From the NCBI GenBank assembly GCA_022572185.1, contig JACZWL010000003.1:1-64000 (forward strand): a stretch of DNA of 64,000 nt, in the 5' to 3' direction. The notes under the pieces are model-generated. The model was not told where the DNA came from, ran no database searches, and saw nothing but the letters and a program-made list of their open reading frames with translations. This document shows positions 12,375-17,263 of the stretch, piece by piece (the stretch's first letter is position 1; every line of letters starts with the position of its first letter). This DNA comes from Pseudomonadota bacterium. Lineage in GTDB: Bacteria; Pseudomonadota; Gammaproteobacteria; Steroidobacterales; Woeseiaceae. Made by a program: the position numbers and the translations under genes.

Positions 12375-12944
12375 CTAGTTCTTGGCTGGTTTCGCAGCGG
12401 GTTCCGGCACGCTGCATTCGAGCATTACGTCCAGTGGCTTCGTGATATAGGTGATCGATTGTTCAGAATCAGTTGCGCAGAGTAGTGACGCCTGCGCGGA
12501 CAGTGCCGCTGAGATTATGACTGTGTTTTCATCGGCGCCGGCAGGTTCTTTGTTGTCACCTGTCTCGTCTGCTTGAAAATCTTGCTGGTCATCCTGGACG
12601 CAGAATCGTTCAATTCGCACCGGTGCGATCTGATTTGACGGAACCTGGAGTTCCAAATCCAGCACCGAAGCCAGTCCCAGTTGTTCTGCATCAAGAGACT
12701 TTCTGCTGTCAGCGATACTTATCGACACTGAAGCAGGCTGCCAATTTTCTTCGCAGTAGGCGGTCAATGTCAGGCTATAGGTGAGACTGGGCAGGCGCAG
12801 GGAAAAGTGACCGGTTCGTCGCGGCGTTACCGTGACCGTTGGTACGTTGGCAGAAATCTCGATGCCTGGTACCGGTCTCGGTTCGGCCGGGACAGCGACA
12901 GAACAGACGCTTGCCATAAACAAAAATAGAAGTGCTGCGCGCAT
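12375..12944 (-). CDS. hypothetical exported protein
   Basis: A 189-residue protein with a clear Sec signal peptide (MRAALLFLFMASVCSVAVPAEP, cleavage probably after the A of V-P-A). The mature part is mostly beta by composition, has paired cysteines (C64, C115, C156, C175 by rough count) that could form disulfides, and ends in a Pro/Ala/Lys tail. I do not recognise the family. It is convergent with the dienelactone hydrolase gene 13 bp away and divergent from the PGPGW gene. Confidence 0.65.
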   Translation of the reverse strand: MRAALLFLFMASVCSVAVPAEPRPVPGIEISANVPTVTVTPRRTGHFSLRLPSLTYSLTLTAYCEENWQPASVSISIADSRKSLDAEQLGLASVLDLELQVPSNQIAPVRIERFCVQDDQQDFQADETGDNKEPAGADENTVIISAALSAQASLLCATDSEQSITYITKPLDVMLECSVPEPAAKPAKN

Positions 12945-13071
12945 ATTCGGCTAAGGCTACGATAACGCCGCAAGGAAAGACATTTAGTACAGCCTGCCCC
13001 GTCTCCCCGTGGCAGACAATCGTGGCCTGACGCTTGGCAAACTGTTTACGAGTCACGGGCAGCAAAGAGCA

Positions 13072-13335
13072 ATGAAGGGCACAATTAGAGTGACCTACAA
13101 AGTTGCGCGGAGGATTGCAGTCCTGACCGTTGGCGGCGCAGTCCTGGCTGTAGGTATTGCAATGATAGTGGCGCCTGGCCCTGCGATAATCGTCATTCCG
13201 ATCGGGCTCGCGGTTCTCGGAATGGAGTTCGCCTGGGCAAGGATCTGGCTACGGACACTGCGCGAGCGAATAAGCGCTCAAAACGGGAAATATCGGGGTC
13301 GTCGCGCAGAAAATCACCGGAATCGGCATCGATAA
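13072..13335 (+). CDS. PGPGW family small membrane protein
   Basis: An 87-residue protein with two hydrophobic helices (about residues 14-33 and 35-55). The turn between them reads A-P-G-P-A and is followed by LAVLGMEFAWAR, matching the family of putative transmembrane proteins named after P-G-P-G-W. Here the last two residues of that motif are replaced (A-P-G-P-A). The frame is open 63 bp further upstream, but the family starts at the basic stretch just before the first helix. Function is unknown. Confidence 0.78.
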   Translation: MKGTIRVTYKVARRIAVLTVGGAVLAVGIAMIVAPGPAIIVIPIGLAVLGMEFAWARIWLRTLRERISAQNGKYRGRRAENHRNRHR

Positions 13336-13359
13336 ACTGCAATTTTCAGGCAAAAAGAA

Positions 13360-13427
13360 GGAGCCGGAGCAGCTAAAAACGATAATCGTTCAGCGGGCCG
13401 ATCCGACACGGAGCGGTCTCCGGCTCC
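13360..13427 (-). terminator. hairpin followed by T-rich run, minus strand
   Basis: Arms GGAGCCGGAG (13360-13369) and CTCCGGCTCC (13418-13427) are exact inverted repeats around a 48-base loop that holds a smaller AACGAT/ATCGTT hairpin. Read on the minus strand, the stem is followed by TTCTTTTT. It lies between two convergent genes and probably ends the transcript of the small exported protein as a second barrier after the hairpin at 13457-13531. Confidence 0.5.
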
Positions 13428-13456
13428 CCTGAAAAAACGGCAAGAAAAAAGGGGAT

Positions 13457-13531
13457 ATGCCGCCGGACCTCCTGGTCCTGTGGGGCCGCGCTACCCGGAC
13501 ATTCGGGGGAGAGTTGTCCGGAGAGCGGCAT
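13457..13531 (-). terminator. long imperfect hairpin with downstream T-run, minus strand
   Basis: Arms ATGCCGCCGGAC (13457-13468) and GTCCG-GAGA-GCGGCAT (13516-13531) pair over 12 bp with a 4-base bulge. On the minus strand, six bases after the stem comes TTTTTT (13450-13445). The element follows the stop of the small exported protein gene by about 27 bp. A terminator is the simplest reading; a processed small RNA is an alternative. Confidence 0.5.
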
Positions 13532-13558
13532 GCCGCCAATCCTGTCGAGGCGATGCTT

Positions 13559-13840
13559 TTACAGGTCGCCTGCGATAAGCACTGAACTGCGGCCAATGAG
13601 CCGAAATTCAAGATTCAGCCGGGTAGCCGCTTTGATAGCCTGGGCCGCTTCCTCGACGGCTGCCTCGTTGGCCAGTGCAGCATGTTCCTTGCTGGCCTCT
13701 TCGATCTGGGCCAGCGACATCTCACTCGCATCAAGCGGTCCGCGGTCGTCGGCCATCGCAGGCGTTGTGCTTACGCTGCCTGCGACTAGCAATAAGGCGG
13801 CAATCACTGCCGGGTTCATCAATTCTCTTGTCCTGTTCAT
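13559..13840 (-). CDS. small exported protein, likely sigma-54 controlled
   Basis: A 93-residue protein with a Sec signal peptide (about residues 1-29, cleavage after A-M-A). The mature part, about 64 residues, is Ala/Glu rich and helical (QIEEASKEHAALANEAAVEEAAQAIKAATRL), followed by LEFRLIGRSSVLIAGDL. I do not recognise a family. ATG 13840 has AAAGGACA about 7 bases upstream; a longer frame from 13909 would include the promoter and is rejected. The gene is divergent from the sigma-54 activator at 14026 and carries a -24/-12 promoter match (13896-13913), so the activator probably controls it. Confidence 0.75.
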   Translation of the reverse strand: MNRTRELMNPAVIAALLLVAGSVSTTPAMADDRGPLDASEMSLAQIEEASKEHAALANEAAVEEAAQAIKAATRLNLEFRLIGRSSVLIAGDL

Positions 13841-13895
13841 TGCGCTGTCCTTTTCAGTGTCGGGCGGCTGTAATCCATCGCCGTCTGGCGTACTC

Positions 13896-13913
13896 ATTGC
13901 ACAAGCCATGCCA
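13896..13913 (-). promoter_or_regulatory. rpoN-dependent: sigma-54 (-24/-12) promoter candidate
   Basis: Read on the minus strand: TGGCATGGCTTGTGCAAT. The invariant GG (13912-13911) and GC (13900-13899) are exactly 10 bases apart as required for RpoN promoters; TGGCAT differs from TGGCAC and GTGCA from TTGCA by one base each. The predicted start near 13887 leaves a 47-base leader before the ATG of the small exported protein. Confidence 0.65.
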
Positions 13914-13959
13914 AACTGGAAAAGCCTTTAATAACAATGAATTAATCTCGAACTGGACG

Positions 13960-13992
13960 TCACGAAATTCCGTTATTTACGAAATTCCGTGA
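13960..13992. promoter_or_regulatory. tandem dyad operator, candidate enhancer site
   Basis: Two exact copies of ACGAAATTCCGT (13962-13973 and 13979-13990), 17 bp apart centre to centre. Each copy is a near-palindrome (ACG.AATT.CGT), and the whole 33-bp block is flanked by TCACG/CGTGA, making a larger dyad. Its centre is about 89 bp upstream of the predicted sigma-54 start of the small exported protein gene, where enhancer sites usually lie, and its right end overlaps the -35 box of the activator gene. Confidence 0.65.
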
Positions 13993-14017
13993 CAATTATT
14001 CCGATTTTCCGTATAAA
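13989..14017 (+). promoter_or_regulatory. sigma-70 promoter of the sigma-54 activator gene
   Basis: GTGACA (13989-13994) and TATAAA (14012-14017) are separated by 17 bases; each differs from consensus by one base. The expected start, about 14024, is only two bases before the ATG at 14026, which would make the mRNA nearly leaderless. The -35 box overlaps the second operator copy, which suggests autorepression. Confidence 0.55.
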
Positions 14018-14025
14018 CTCCTGGC

Positions 14026-15834
14026 ATGACGATACACGATGACTATCAATGGCTCTTTCGCAAGGCACCGGCGATGATCACCTTGATCGGCGACGAGGGC
14101 CGGTATCTCGATATGAACGATGCCTTCCTCGACCGCCTGGGGTTTACGCGCGAGGAAATGATCGGCCGCCGGCCCGCCGAGTTCGTCACCGAGTCGAGTG
14201 CCCATCGCATCGAGAGTGAATTCCTGCCGACGCTCAGGCGGACGGGCAAGCTGGAGAACAAACCGATCACGTTGCGGACGAGGTCAGGCGAAGTGGTGGA
14301 GTGCCTTACCAATTCACTGGTCGAGCACGACCCGGATGGTTCGTTTGTCCGCATCGTAGCGATTTACAGCGAGGTGGCAGACCAGGCCAAGGCAAACCTC
14401 AAATACCGGCACCTGTACCGTTCGACACCGGCGATGCTGCATACCGTGGATTCCAATGGCTGCATCATGACGGTGACGGATCATTGGCTACAGAAAATGG
14501 CTTATACCCGCGATGAAGTCGTCGGGCGACCGATTGTGGATTTTTTCAGCACCGTATACCAAAAGAAATTCGCCGGTGATCGGTTGCAGGAAGTCATCGA
14601 TGGCGGCGAGTTCAATAACGAAGAACGGCAGATGGTTACCAAGGATGGAATCGTGCTTGATCTTCTGATGTCCGCTATTTCTGAAAGAGATTCCTCGGGA
14701 CGGGTTCAGCGAATGCTGGTTGCGTCGAAAGACGTTACCGAACGTAATCGTGCCGAGCGGGCACTGCGGAAAACGCTTGCCGAGAATGCGCACCTGCGCG
14801 AGGAACTCGAACGCGAGCGTGATTACCTGCGCGAGGAAGTTAACGTCTCGATGAACTTCGGCCGGATTATCGGCAAGAGCCCGGCTTTGAAACACATGCT
14901 GGCTCAGGTTGAAGCAGTTGCTCAGACGCCGGCCAGCGTACTGGTGCTTGGCGAATCCGGCGTCGGCAAGGAATTGGTCGCCCACGCTATCCATGCACGG
15001 AGTCCACGCGCTGACGGCCCGCTTGTGAAAGTAAATTGTCCCTCGATACCCAAAGATCTGTTTGAAAGCGAATTCTTCGGGCACGTCAAAGGGGCATTCA
15101 CCGGGGCGCACCGTGATCGGGTCGGCAGGTTTCAGCTCGCGGACGGCGGCACGATTTTTCTGGACGAGGTCGGCGAAATTCCGATCGAGTTGCAGGGCAA
15201 ACTCCTGCGCGTGTTGCAGGAGAGTGAGTTCGAACGTGTCGGCGACGACATCACGAGGTCCGTTGATGTCAGGGTGATTGCAGCAACCAACCGGGATCTC
15301 GAACAGCTTGTCATAACTGGCAAGTTCCGTGAGGATCTGTTTTATCGCCTGAGCGTTTTCCCGATTGATGTGCCGCCATTGCGCAAACGCGGCGACGATG
15401 TGATACAGCTGGCGCAACATTTTCTCGAGGCAACGTGCAATGAATTTGGCCGAGAGCCGATGCTGCTGACGCAGATTCAGGCTGACGAAATCAGAAATTA
15501 CGACTGGCCCGGAAACGTGCGTGAACTCAAGAATGTTATTGAACGAGCGGTTATCCTGTCACAGGGCAATGTCTTGCGACTCGACCTGTCCCTGGCTGCA
15601 CCTGGGGCGGCAAGTGTTGCAGGATCACAACACGACGATTTGGCGACGGAGAGTCTGATTCTTACCGAAAAGGACATGAAAATATTGCAAAAGAAGAATT
15701 TATTGGCGGCACTCAGGCAGGCTAACTGGCGAGTGTCCGGGAAGGGCGGGGCGGCGGAGCTTCTCGGCGTGCGGCCGACTACGCTTGCCGATCGCATCAA
15801 GACTTTCGGCGTGCGTAAACCGCGCCACAGTTGA
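14026..15834 (+). CDS. PAS-PAS sigma-54-dependent activator (Fis family)
   Basis: A 602-residue bacterial enhancer-binding protein. Two PAS domains (about 5-115 and 125-240) are followed by a short coiled coil (about 240-280), an AAA+ domain and a Fis-type helix-turn-helix (about 555-600). Walker A GESGVGKE sits near 307, the sigma-54 contact loop GAFTGA near 357 and Walker B TIFLDEVGE near 375, so it should be an active ATPase. No His-Asp receiver domain is present; sensing is probably by ligand or redox state at the PAS domains. It is divergent from the small exported protein gene, which has a -24/-12 promoter. ATG 14026 is needed to keep the first PAS domain whole. Confidence 0.93.
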   Translation: MTIHDDYQWLFRKAPAMITLIGDEGRYLDMNDAFLDRLGFTREEMIGRRPAEFVTESSAHRIESEFLPTLRRTGKLENKPITLRTRSGEVVECLTNSLVEHDPDGSFVRIVAIYSEVADQAKANLKYRHLYRSTPAMLHTVDSNGCIMTVTDHWLQKMAYTRDEVVGRPIVDFFSTVYQKKFAGDRLQEVIDGGEFNNEERQMVTKDGIVLDLLMSAISERDSSGRVQRMLVASKDVTERNRAERALRKTLAENAHLREELERERDYLREEVNVSMNFGRIIGKSPALKHMLAQVEAVAQTPASVLVLGESGVGKELVAHAIHARSPRADGPLVKVNCPSIPKDLFESEFFGHVKGAFTGAHRDRVGRFQLADGGTIFLDEVGEIPIELQGKLLRVLQESEFERVGDDITRSVDVRVIAATNRDLEQLVITGKFREDLFYRLSVFPIDVPPLRKRGDDVIQLAQHFLEATCNEFGREPMLLTQIQADEIRNYDWPGNVRELKNVIERAVILSQGNVLRLDLSLAAPGAASVAGSQHDDLATESLILTEKDMKILQKKNLLAALRQANWRVSGKGGAAELLGVRPTTLADRIKTFGVRKPRHS

Positions 15835-15844
15835 GAGGGCGGAC

Positions 15845-17263
15845 ATGACCGATCGAGTCAGACTCCTGCCCCTGGTAATTGTCGTCTTGCCGATGCTTGG
15901 GCTTTGCGACAGTGTGTTGCCGCCTGGCGTACGAAGTTCTTTGGACCTGCGTAGGGCGCCCGACAGTAGCCTTAGCATCTATGTTGAGAACCTCGATACG
16001 GGCGAGCCAGTCCTGGCCTGGAATGAAGACGTTCCGCGCAACCCGGCATCGGTCATCAAGCTGCTGACAACACTTGTGGCCTTGGACATCCTCGGCCCTG
16101 CCTATACCTGGAAGACGGAAGCCTACCTGTTGGGGAAAACAGATGGCGATGTTCTGGACGGCGACCTGCTGCTCAAAGGCTATGGCGACCCGTTCCTGGT
16201 AACCACACGCGTTTGGCAAATGTTGCGCGAGATTCGACAAAAGGGGATCAACCGGATAACGGGTGACCTTCTGATTGATGACAGCTACTTCGACGTGCCG
16301 TATCACGATCCGGCCAAATTCGACCGGGAACCACTGCGCGCTTATAACGTTGCGCCGAATGCACTACTGATGAATTTCAAGGTAGTGCGCTATCACTTCG
16401 AGCCCGACCCCGAGTCGGCGACAGTCAGAATTCGGGTTGATCCGCCACTCGAGAATCTGCGAATCGAGAACAGACTAAAGGTCGCGCAAGGCCGCTGCCG
16501 CGGTTACCAGCGCGGAATTACTATTACGCCGAACGAAACAGTCGATCACATGGTGATGAGTGGCCAGTTTCCCAGTGGTTGCAAAACCTACGCGATGCAT
16601 CGCGCTGTGCTCAGTCACAACGAGTTTGCCTATGGTCTCTTCAAAAGCATCTGGCAGGAATCGGGCGGCGAGTTTTCGGGAAGCGTGAGGAACGTGGTCA
16701 AACCTGATGACATCGAGCCGTTTCTGGTTTTCGAATCTTTGCCATTGGCCGATATCATCAGCAAGGTAAACAAACACAGTAACAACGTAATGGCCCGCCA
16801 GCTTCTTTTTACGCTGGGTGCCGAGAGATTTGCCGTGCCAGGCACGGAAGAGGGCGGCAGGCAGGTCATCCAGGATTGGCTCAAAAGCAGGCAGCTCGGA
16901 TCCGCCAAGCTGAAACTTGATAACGGGGCCGGGTTGTCACGGAATTCGCGCATCTCGGCCAGAAACCTCGGCGAGATTCTGCGTTACGCCTGGCAGAGCC
17001 CATTCATGCCCGAGTATTTGTCTTCACTTTCCCTGTCGGGCCTCGACGGCACCTTGATGCGACGTTTTCGTGATGACCCGTTAACCGGCAAGGCGCATAT
17101 CAAGACCGGCCGGCTCGACAATGTCACCGCGATCGCGGGTTACCTTCAGTCCAGATCGGGCGGACGATACACCATTGTCGCACTGCAAAATCACACTGAC
17201 GTGCATCGCGGTCCCGGCGAAGAAGTACAGGCGGCCTTACTTCGTTGGTTGTACGAACAGTAA
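15845..17263 (+). CDS. dacB: D-alanyl-D-alanine carboxypeptidase/endopeptidase (PBP4)
   Basis: A 472-residue low-molecular-weight penicillin-binding protein, family S13. An N-terminal signal peptide targets it to the periplasm. All three active-site motifs are visible: S-V-I-K in NPASVIKLLTT, S-N-N in KHSNNVMARQL and K-T-G in HIKTGRLDN. It trims D-Ala and cuts peptide cross-links in peptidoglycan. ATG 15845 follows the activator stop by 10 bp; the longer frame from 15785 overlaps the activator and is not needed. Whether it shares the activator transcript cannot be decided. Confidence 0.92.
   Translation: MTDRVRLLPLVIVVLPMLGLCDSVLPPGVRSSLDLRRAPDSSLSIYVENLDTGEPVLAWNEDVPRNPASVIKLLTTLVALDILGPAYTWKTEAYLLGKTDGDVLDGDLLLKGYGDPFLVTTRVWQMLREIRQKGINRITGDLLIDDSYFDVPYHDPAKFDREPLRAYNVAPNALLMNFKVVRYHFEPDPESATVRIRVDPPLENLRIENRLKVAQGRCRGYQRGITITPNETVDHMVMSGQFPSGCKTYAMHRAVLSHNEFAYGLFKSIWQESGGEFSGSVRNVVKPDDIEPFLVFESLPLADIISKVNKHSNNVMARQLLFTLGAERFAVPGTEEGGRQVIQDWLKSRQLGSAKLKLDNGAGLSRNSRISARNLGEILRYAWQSPFMPEYLSSLSLSGLDGTLMRRFRDDPLTGKAHIKTGRLDNVTAIAGYLQSRSGGRYTIVALQNHTDVHRGPGEEVQAALLRWLYEQ

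Follow-up and report, generated by a model that had tools for sequence, protein, structure and literature searches.

The locus examined here lies on a Woeseiaceae contig (JACZWL010000003.1, assembly GCA_022572185.1), of which the whole 64,000-nt stretch that was analysed is referred to as the window. Two divergent genes were found: one encodes a PAS-PAS-AAA+-Fis sigma-54 activator of 602 aa (14026..15834, + strand), and the other a small protein of 93 aa predicted to be exported (13559..13840, - strand), the long form of a family whose homologues also stand beside the activator. A predicted structured RNA of 227 nt (13352..13578, - strand) follows the small ORF, its 5' end being estimated from a predicted promoter and its 3' end from a terminator. 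The Pfam search showed two PAS domains and Sigma54_activat (E=1.7e-70) in the activator, and GAFTGA was intact in the translation, which agrees with what a first-pass annotation of this DNA had described. The Fis-type HTH (HTH_8) was a weak match, with E=0.0011 and 19.1 bits against a cut-off of 22. The activator was 59-75% identical across 15 further aligned genomes.

Upstream of the small ORF, a -24/-12 sigma-54-type promoter, TGGCATGGCTTGTGCA, was located at 13898..13913 on the - strand, with GG at 13912-13911, GC at 13900-13899 and 10 nt between them, so the GG-N10-GC spacing noticed earlier was correct. Two exact copies of ACGAAATTCCGT, 17 bp apart as had been reported, form dyad 1 (13962..13973, + strand) and dyad 2 (13979..13990, + strand), both predicted enhancer sites. 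They had been placed about 89 bp upstream of the start of the small gene; counted from the start codon they in fact begin at about 121 bp, and counted from the predicted transcription start at about 75 bp. The activator promoter, GTGACA-N17-TATAAA (13989..14017, + strand), has its -35 box at 13989-13994, where it overlaps dyad 2 as stated before, and its -10 box at 14012-14017, which abuts a third dyad, CCGATTTTCCGT (14001..14012, + strand), degenerate in the window and predicted to be an operator within this promoter. The activator start codon stands 8 nt past the -10 box, as it does in 62/79 genomes, and judged from this distance the activator mRNA is probably leaderless. Between the sigma-54-type promoter and the enhancer, a motif match, TAACAATGAATTA (13932..13944, + strand), is presumably an IHF-like site, as judged by the IHF consensus. 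The third dyad, the IHF-like site and the structured RNA behind the ORF had all been overlooked in the first-pass annotation.

The anatomy of the locus was counted in 79 of 107 Woeseiaceae genomes, after the duplicates L084, L088 and L089 had been removed from 82 loci; the other 28 include 14 that lack the dyad pattern, of which nine belong to genus g5. The 80 named loci that were kept all come from metagenome-assembled genomes, according to their record titles. The -24/-12 box alone was not significant within the window (32 matches with at most two mismatches, 35 expected), but such a box was present in 79/79 family genomes and 80/80 named loci. The dyad pair, with at most one mismatch, was found in 93/107 genomes, at a single place in 89 of them and at two places in G008, G069, G076 and G099, whereas the reversed pattern matched only 1/107, namely the window's own genome. 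The first-pass annotation had made its proposal depend on conservation of these elements among relatives, and this is what was found. The 12-bp dyads occur three per module across the 79 genomes, spaced 17 and then 22 bp, the latter distance being 22 bp in 75 genomes and 23 bp in 4, and the activator promoter with its -10 box against dyad 3 is likewise retained in these genomes. Where the exact pair allowed a measurement (73 genomes), dyad 1 and the -24/-12 box were separated by 46-48 bp, with 48 bp in 63. The IHF-like motif was present in 64/79, at the identical offset in 59. The region around the module is syntenic throughout Woeseiaceae, and therefore adjacency by itself proves little. Synteny as the only reason for conservation was nevertheless rejected: the alignment columns from the IHF-like site to dyad 1 hold only 0.03-0.57 bit and are near-random, so the conservation of the elements does not reflect mere relatedness. 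These results uphold the idea of a self-contained sigma-54-type module, retained in 79/79 genomes, in which enhancer dyads accompany a divergent activator and an operator is positioned so that it could mediate autorepression. One genome assigned to another family (G255, a 6-kb contig with 6% contamination) also carries the module and may be misbinned.

The small proteins of the 79 genomes range from 30 to 108 aa, have a hydrophobic N-terminus and evolve fast. The 93-aa protein matched no Pfam family above cut-off and no NCBIfam family, and its predicted structure (mean pLDDT 62.6) contained helices at 10-22 and 43-73, for which no fold is claimed. The ORFs fell into three length classes, of 30-37 aa in 12 genomes (mostly hydrophobic residues), 45-52 aa in 22 and 84-108 aa in 45. 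Thus, of the earlier proposal that a 93-aa exported protein is the output, the ORF stood in 79/79 genomes, but the exported C-terminal domain was not the constant output, given the two shorter classes. For 13 ORFs 45 aa long, pN/pS over codons 2-30 was 0.33; 11 ORFs of 94 aa gave 0.37 in the TM part, 0.55 in the middle and 0.61 in the C-terminal part, and four ORFs from among the shortest gave 0.46. Judged by these ratios, the related ORF groups are under purifying selection.

The earlier reading took the protein alone as the module output, which was not supported as it stood, since a conserved structured RNA follows the ORF. The 227-nt RNA folds at -96.1 kcal/mol and, on the - strand, comprises the P1 stem-loop with the loop ACTCTCCCCCGAA (13495..13521), which shows covariation; the P3 stem-loop GGACC-AGGA-GGTCC (13465..13478), with AU/GC exchanges in relatives; the P4 stem-loop CGGCA...TGCCG (13438..13462), with a C/U-rich loop and a stem almost invariant among relatives; and an intrinsic terminator, GGAGCCGGAG...CTCCGGCTCC with a U-run (13352..13427), resembling the GC-rich stem and U-run of the inspected relatives. 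In an alignment of 37 genomes, paired cells reached 97.3% (90.3% in shuffles), double-change cells 48 (12.8) and covariation 0.302 (0.155), each value being reached by 0/500 shuffles; altogether four of five covariation measures lay beyond all shuffles, with the structure derived from the same alignment. The fifth, pairs with double change, showed no excess in this unfitted alignment (6 against 5.6, 316/500 shuffles). With 75 distinct rows, in an alignment fitted to the structure, double-change cells were 145 against 39.6, and 0/500 shuffles reached the observed value on all five measures.

The covariance model R1 matched the window, which is outside its training set, at 13436-13544 on the - strand (32.5 bits, E=7.2e-5). 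It detected the RNA in 69/79 genomes at E<=0.01 and missed 10; as 37 had been used for training, this corresponds to 32/42 of the others. Across 396 genomes of the order, matches came from 78 Woeseiaceae genomes and G255, under stricter filters that missed several module-bearing Woeseiaceae, such as G002, G003 and G011. In 11 loci no Rfam family reached its gathering score; within 12900-14100 of the window, Rfam gave two matches below threshold, one with E=2.3 and the best with E=0.71 and 16.1 bits against a cut-off of 60. A C run was present in a hairpin loop in 76/79 genomes against 78/395 shuffles, with 3/79 failing, and the C-rich loops could be part of an elaborate terminator. A CsrA/Rsm sponge was rejected, as the P3 loop is often AGGA but is not conserved (TTAAC, GTTTAC, ATGAA and AGTT occur). 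So was a riboswitch or attenuator, because the next gene in the window is convergent (13009-13335, + strand) and leaves no downstream gene to control, and a dispersed repeat, because R1 gives one match per genome, with the exception of two matches at contig ends in G064.

The array was also found beyond the module. A second dyad pair in G008 lies 48 bp from a TGGCACG-N5-TGCA promoter preceding a cytochrome P460 gene, which speaks against the one-output system predicted earlier. Nor is the operator array peculiar to the module, as it also stands beside PAS activators in other Gammaproteobacteria. The distant loci L266 and L269, with activators 62-63% identical, keep the dyads, the promoter and the exported ORF, and inspection by eye showed a C-rich-loop hairpin and a terminator past the stop codon; they gave no R1 match. 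Dyad arrays with 17 and 21/22 bp spacing were present near PAS/sigma-54 activators in L270, L273 and L275, which belong to Gammaproteobacteria outside the family, the third dyad being sought in nine of 11 outside-family loci (all except L274 and L281). The array-bearing loci outside Woeseiaceae adjoin an FNT transporter and cyanase, an FNT transporter, or an NMT1-like binding protein (Pfam neighbours Cyanate_lyase, Form_Nir_trans and NMT1_2). Cyanase (PF02560) was found in 0/107 Woeseiaceae in a search that matched only Synechococcus elongatus among 14 control genomes, so that this absence is not proof; on this search result, a cyanate response of the module was rejected.

At the end of the small ORF, within its 3' coding part, lies a putative RpoH-like promoter, CTTGAATTTCGGCTCATTGGCCGCAGTT (13585..13612, - strand), with the consensus CTTGAW-N14-CCnCAnnT across genomes. 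RpoH promoters have boxes resembling CTTGAA-N13-15-CCCCATnT. With the spacer fixed at 14, the element scored at least 10/11 in 55/79 genomes (0.4 in shuffles, 0 reversed) and below 9 in 8/79. When spacers of 11-18 were allowed with no penalty, 14 was the single best in 64/79 genomes and among ties in 9. By comparison, CTTGAW-N14 was found at about -120 of groES in 17/17 relatives, with -10 boxes that were mostly CCCTATnA rather than CCnCAnnT, and the genome's own dnaK (NCBIfam E=1.9e-265) is preceded by CTTGAA-N14-CCCCACTT; in sequence, the element thus resembles the groES and dnaK promoters of Woeseiaceae. It might instead be an RNA-level feature, such as an RNase E site or a pairing region, or the promoter of another sigma factor. 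The pattern alone is common: this genome contains it 6 times and its reverse 3 times. The element was not seen by eye in L266 and L269, so the supposed RpoH-like promoter could have been misread, or could be something that Woeseiaceae added. We nevertheless consider an RNA-level feature or another sigma factor doubtful, given the preference for N14 shared with groES and dnaK and the persistence of the element in both coding and non-coding contexts.

The 12 genomes in which the element is non-coding, past the stop codon, and still scores 8-11 also bear on a second alternative, namely that the module produces a periplasmic protein whose C-terminal part carries a conserved motif (LDLDIRLIGPTS) and that nothing but a terminator and 3' UTR follows. 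Such a protein would agree with the long ORFs of 45/79 genomes and with the pN/pS of their middle and C-terminal parts, but the ORF in those 12 genomes stops before the motif while the element remains, and covarying stems and conserved C-rich loops extend beyond the terminator hairpin, which makes this reading unlikely. Still less probable is a reading in which only the RNA counts, so that the module amounts to a sigma-54 sRNA gene comparable to GlmY or Qrr and the ORF to a dispensable leader peptide: the ORF diverges fast and profile A1 finds it in only 43/107 genomes, with dyads in 93, but in 79/79 genomes an ORF was picked that begins with hydrophobic residues and has 3-6/6 AGGAGG matches upstream, both features being picking criteria, and the low pN/pS holds in the hydrophobic part and in the shortest ORFs.

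Taken together, the promoter and operator anatomy, the ORF and the CTTGAW-N14-CCnCAnnT element are conserved, and the RNA covaries. Our preferred reading, held with moderate confidence, is that a CynF-like sigma-54 activator has been rewired to drive one transcript that serves as small-peptide mRNA and as C-rich sRNA, the latter having a second, RpoH-like entry point. From the sequence we infer dependence on RpoN, IHF and RpoH, autorepression, pairing by the C-rich sRNA and a membrane location of the peptide. A one-component PAS-type activator, broadly comparable in kind to CynF, would bind three ACGA(N4)TCGT-like dyads, of which the outer two would serve as the enhancer of the sigma-54 promoter, with IHF bending the DNA, and dyad 3, between the -35 and -10 boxes of the activator's own promoter, would mediate autorepression. 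The sigma-54 transcript would be bifunctional: its ORF would encode a small exported or membrane-spanning peptide in which a hydrophobic helix at the N-terminus is the constant part, and the 3' part of the transcript would be a structured sRNA whose C-rich loops probably pair with G-rich ribosome-binding sites. The second promoter near the ORF end, of the RpoH (heat-shock) type, would feed the same sRNA in Woeseiaceae, and two stress inputs would converge on it. More tentatively, and at somewhat less than even chances, this could be a family-wide dual-function stress module, in which a CynF-like activator was rewired off cyanate to a membrane-micropeptide mRNA and a new C-rich sRNA family, with the embedded RpoH promoter feeding the sRNA; the conserved "peptide motif" LDIRLIGPTS would then be partly a coding shadow of the promoter. 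In one genome cytochrome P460 would belong to the regulon as well, which makes nitrosative or redox stress a candidate for the input.

In the literature library used for this analysis, no paper was found that pairs Woeseia with RpoN. Woeseiaceae gain here one regulatory module that is widely conserved, together with a candidate family of RNAs without an Rfam match. If the preferred reading is true, two stress sigma factors act on one small RNA, and the coding sequence of a micropeptide gene conceals a promoter at its 3' end. Parts of this arrangement are familiar. NorR-norVW has three enhancer sites and autorepression, in ZraSR-zraP the sigma-54 periplasmic protein ZraP is divergent from its regulator, and CpxP is a small periplasmic protein of the Cpx two-component system. 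To our knowledge, none of GlmY, NorR-norVW and ZraSR-zraP joins such traits to an sRNA that also codes for a peptide and to a second promoter.

GlmY is described as a sigma-54 sRNA (PMC6075780). CpxP and the 3'-UTR sRNA CpxQ come from one mRNA and form a mixed circuit against inner-membrane stress (PMC9438474), but the sequences are unrelated and the Woeseiaceae module uses a one-component sigma-54 activator. The same source describes sRNA promoters within or at the end of coding regions for MicL, DapZ and MicX; MicL is sigma-E dependent, whereas the embedded element here is RpoH-like and its parent sigma-54 driven (PMC9438474). GlnZ is released from the glnA 3' UTR of an RpoN-dependent mRNA, and its parent, unlike that of the Woeseiaceae module, encodes glutamine synthetase under NtrC control (PMC9731577). 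The C-rich stretches are candidate seeds like those of sX13 of Xanthomonas, whose C-rich loops target G-rich motifs close to where translation begins (PMC3771888), and VcdRP of Vibrio, in which VcdR pairs four cytosines with translation-initiation sites and which also encodes a 29-aa protein (PMC8672173); unlike these two as described, the RNA here belongs to an enhancer module and has no Rfam family at threshold. A likeness in kind is also seen with cynFABDS of Pseudomonas pseudoalcaligenes, where CynF, a sigma-54 regulator of the Fis family, is encoded divergently from its target; the target has a putative sigma-54 promoter and the regulator a sigma-70 promoter of its own (PMC6627978). The divergent sigma-54 regulator and the sigma-54-type target promoter are common to both, but the predicted output in Woeseiaceae is a peptide and an RNA. 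The array itself is shared with the PAS activators next to cyanase and transporter genes, a comparison drawn from those loci. If different Gammaproteobacteria have reused the array for different outputs, regulators with no assigned signal could be matched to their targets by sequence.

As shown by the window sequence, the sigma-54 promoter TGGCATGGCTTGTGCA (13913-13898, minus strand), the two dyads (12-bp near-palindromes; dyad 1, 13962-13973; dyad 2, 13979-13990), the small ORF (13559-13840, minus strand) and the divergent activator gene (14026-15834, plus strand) named in the first-pass annotation were all present. Only the distance of 89 bp from start codon to dyads was wrong, the first dyad bases lying about 121 bp away. 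Dyad 3 of the window was degenerate (CCGATTTTCCGT). A Pfam search of the activator translation showed a strong sigma-54 AAA+ domain with GAFTGA plus two PAS domains, and the Fis helix-turn-helix scored under the cut-off. The 93-aa ORF had no Pfam family above its cut-off and no NCBIfam family, and the predicted structure of its product was of low confidence. Judged within the window alone, the -24/-12 match was not above chance. A gene for a PBP4-type D-Ala-D-Ala carboxypeptidase (window 15845-17263) may begin 11 bp past the activator stop codon. In most Woeseiaceae loci compared this gene comes directly after the activator, with which it is possibly co-transcribed.

A search of 40 genomes for the small protein recovered homologues in 12, the window's own counted, all from one family. 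The proposed divergent pairing with the activator was seen in 11/11 other genomes, with activators 71-78% identical over the available part. Conservation of dyads and promoter among relatives was likewise borne out: the dyad pair, with at most one mismatch, was present in 93 of 107 Woeseiaceae genomes (at a single place in 89), and -24/-12 in 79/79 genomes read. As a control, the dyad pattern read backwards matched one genome of the 107, the window's own. The distance from -24/-12 to dyad 1, measurable in 73 of the 79 genomes, was 48 bp in 63, 47 in 8 and 46 in 2; dyad 3 followed dyad 2 at 22 bp in 75/79 and 23 bp in 4/79, and an IHF-like site was found in 64/79, at a constant offset in 59. 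The alignment columns from this site to dyad 1 carried only 0.03-0.57 bit, indicating that the conservation of promoter and operator is not mere relatedness. The activator adjoined the dyad pair in 30/30 loci examined. The gene neighbourhood is syntenic throughout Woeseiaceae, which weakens adjacency as evidence and leaves the spacer-column argument unaffected. In 62/79 genomes the activator start codon lay only 8 nt past the -10, suggesting from sequence that its mRNA is leaderless.

Three loci (L108, L109, L123) had additional dyads, or their operator array stood farther from the activator -10, which looks like the duplication of a unit. Nine small genomes (1.1-2.0 Mb) of one Woeseiaceae genus, g5 (G004, G014, G019, G022, G040-G044), had neither dyad pair nor small-protein match, and the module may have been lost there together with genome reduction. 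The module also occurred on a 6-kb contig (L091) of G255, a genome assigned to another family, f15, by misbinning or transfer.

The claim that the output is an exported small protein stood in part. An ORF, picked partly by hydrophobicity and ribosome-binding-site match, lay behind the promoter in 79 genomes, but its length was 84-108 aa in 45, 45-52 aa in 22 and only 30-37 aa in 12, the shortest reaching hardly beyond one hydrophobic helix (e.g. MKDYKQEGLALAGMLIVLLGVMFAAAATVA). The pN/pS ratio was 0.33 in codons 2-30 and 0.44 in the tail of 13 ORFs of 45 aa; in 11 ORFs of 94 aa it was 0.37 for the TM part, 0.55 for the middle and 0.61 for the C-terminal part. Four of the shortest ORFs gave 0.46. 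By lengths and pN/pS together, the hydrophobic N-terminus is the constant part, and the exported tail is optional.

The region 3' of the ORF stop codon carried a GC-rich terminator as well as stem-loops whose loops are C-rich; in 76/79 genomes, versus 78/395 shuffles, four or more consecutive C stood in a hairpin loop closed by at least 6 bp. In alignment A2 of this predicted structured RNA (37 genomes, three helices), paired cells (97.3% vs 90.3% shuffled), cells changed on both sides (48 vs 12.8) and covariation (0.302 vs 0.155) were each reached by 0/500 shuffles, while pairs with a double change were not above shuffles (6 vs 5.6; 316/500). Sliding the structures as a control reduced pairing to 21-47%. 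The covariance model R1 matched the window, which was absent from its training set, at 13436-13544 (minus strand; 32.5 bits, E=7.2e-5), and 69/79 loci at E<=0.01, 37 of these in training. In the alignment from R1, itself fitted to the structure, all five covariation measures were above every shuffle. Among 396 genomes of the order, searched with stricter filters that missed several module-carrying Woeseiaceae genomes, 79 had a match, namely 78 Woeseiaceae and G255, one per genome except for two in G064. No Rfam family reached threshold in 11 loci, and window 12900-14100 gave two weak matches only. A CsrA sponge was argued against by the P3 loop, which is not conserved.

At the ORF end, the RpoH-like element CTTGAW-N14-CCnCAnnT scored 10-11/11 in 55/79 genomes (shuffles 0.4, reversed 0) and at least 9/11 in 71/79 (shuffles 3.05, reversed 2), with 8 below 9. 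When spacers of 11-18 were weighted equally, N14 was sole best in 64/79 and tied best in 9. In long-form ORFs the element falls on the codons of LDIRLIGPTS; in 12 genomes it lies beyond the stop codon (scores 8-11), so coding constraint is no explanation there. The pattern alone is common genome-wide, with 6 places in the window's own genome versus 3 for its reverse. Its RpoH label is a putative one, based on likeness to the groES and dnaK promoters and on the E. coli RpoH consensus. CTTGAW-N14 was found about 120 bp upstream of groES in 17/17 Woeseiaceae genomes tested, with -10 boxes mostly CCCTATnA, and the genome's own dnaK has CTTGAA-N14-CCCCACTT. The groES boxes are followed by TTrGCACTC (L143-L159), a CIRCE-like sequence, which suggests joint control of groES by RpoH and HrcA.

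From 237 related stretches in named genomes, 80 loci were kept, with -24/-12 in 80/80 and the exact dyad pair in 74/80. Two distant loci (L266, L269) had dyads, promoter and exported ORF, with L266 dyad spacing one base longer, and, as judged by eye, a C-rich-loop hairpin and terminator; neither an R1 match nor an RpoH-like element was seen. A relaxed dyad pattern matched 11 of 369 genomes of the class, two of them Woeseiaceae. At non-Woeseiaceae loci, an activator homologue lay within the examined stretch in 8/11 read, and a third dyad 21-22 bp further in 6/9 tested (L270, L273, L275, L276, L277, L280). The 17 + 21/22 bp array is present in other gammaproteobacterial families, with an activator homologue in the examined stretch of all six but L280. 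Next to these arrays lay genes for cyanase with an FNT transporter, for an NMT1-like binding protein, for DUF3187 and for a DsrE-like protein; over all the non-Woeseiaceae loci, the neighbours also included an FNT transporter and an alpha/beta hydrolase. No cyanase was found in 107 Woeseiaceae, by a search that matched only 1/14 control genomes. In Woeseiaceae genome G008, a second dyad pair (L093, G008:C1:2774775-2774803) lay 48 bp from a sigma-54-like TGGCACG-N5-TGCA promoter preceding a cytochrome P460 gene (Pfam E=5e-25), so the signal may be nitrosative or redox stress.

We propose that the activator would open the sigma-54 promoter from dyads 1-2 and shut its own promoter from dyad 3, that a single transcript would yield peptide and sRNA, and that the RpoH-like promoter would be a second entry. 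The module's dependence on all these factors, its signal and its targets are what we infer. A literature search for Woeseia together with RpoN found no paper; two papers on Woeseia together with sRNA named Woeseia once each in the portions available, and among the matches listed for related literature none mentioned Woeseiaceae. Known systems offer precedents. CynF of P. pseudoalcaligenes is a Fis-type sigma-54 regulator divergent from the cyanate genes it regulates (PMC6627978), and the C-rich seeds of sX13 and VcdRP work at translation-start regions (PMC3771888, PMC8672173). MicL and DapZ have ORF-embedded promoters, as proposed for the RpoH-like second entry, and CpxP/CpxQ come, as protein and sRNA, from one transcript (PMC9438474), as do glnA/GlnZ for an RpoN mRNA (PMC9731577).
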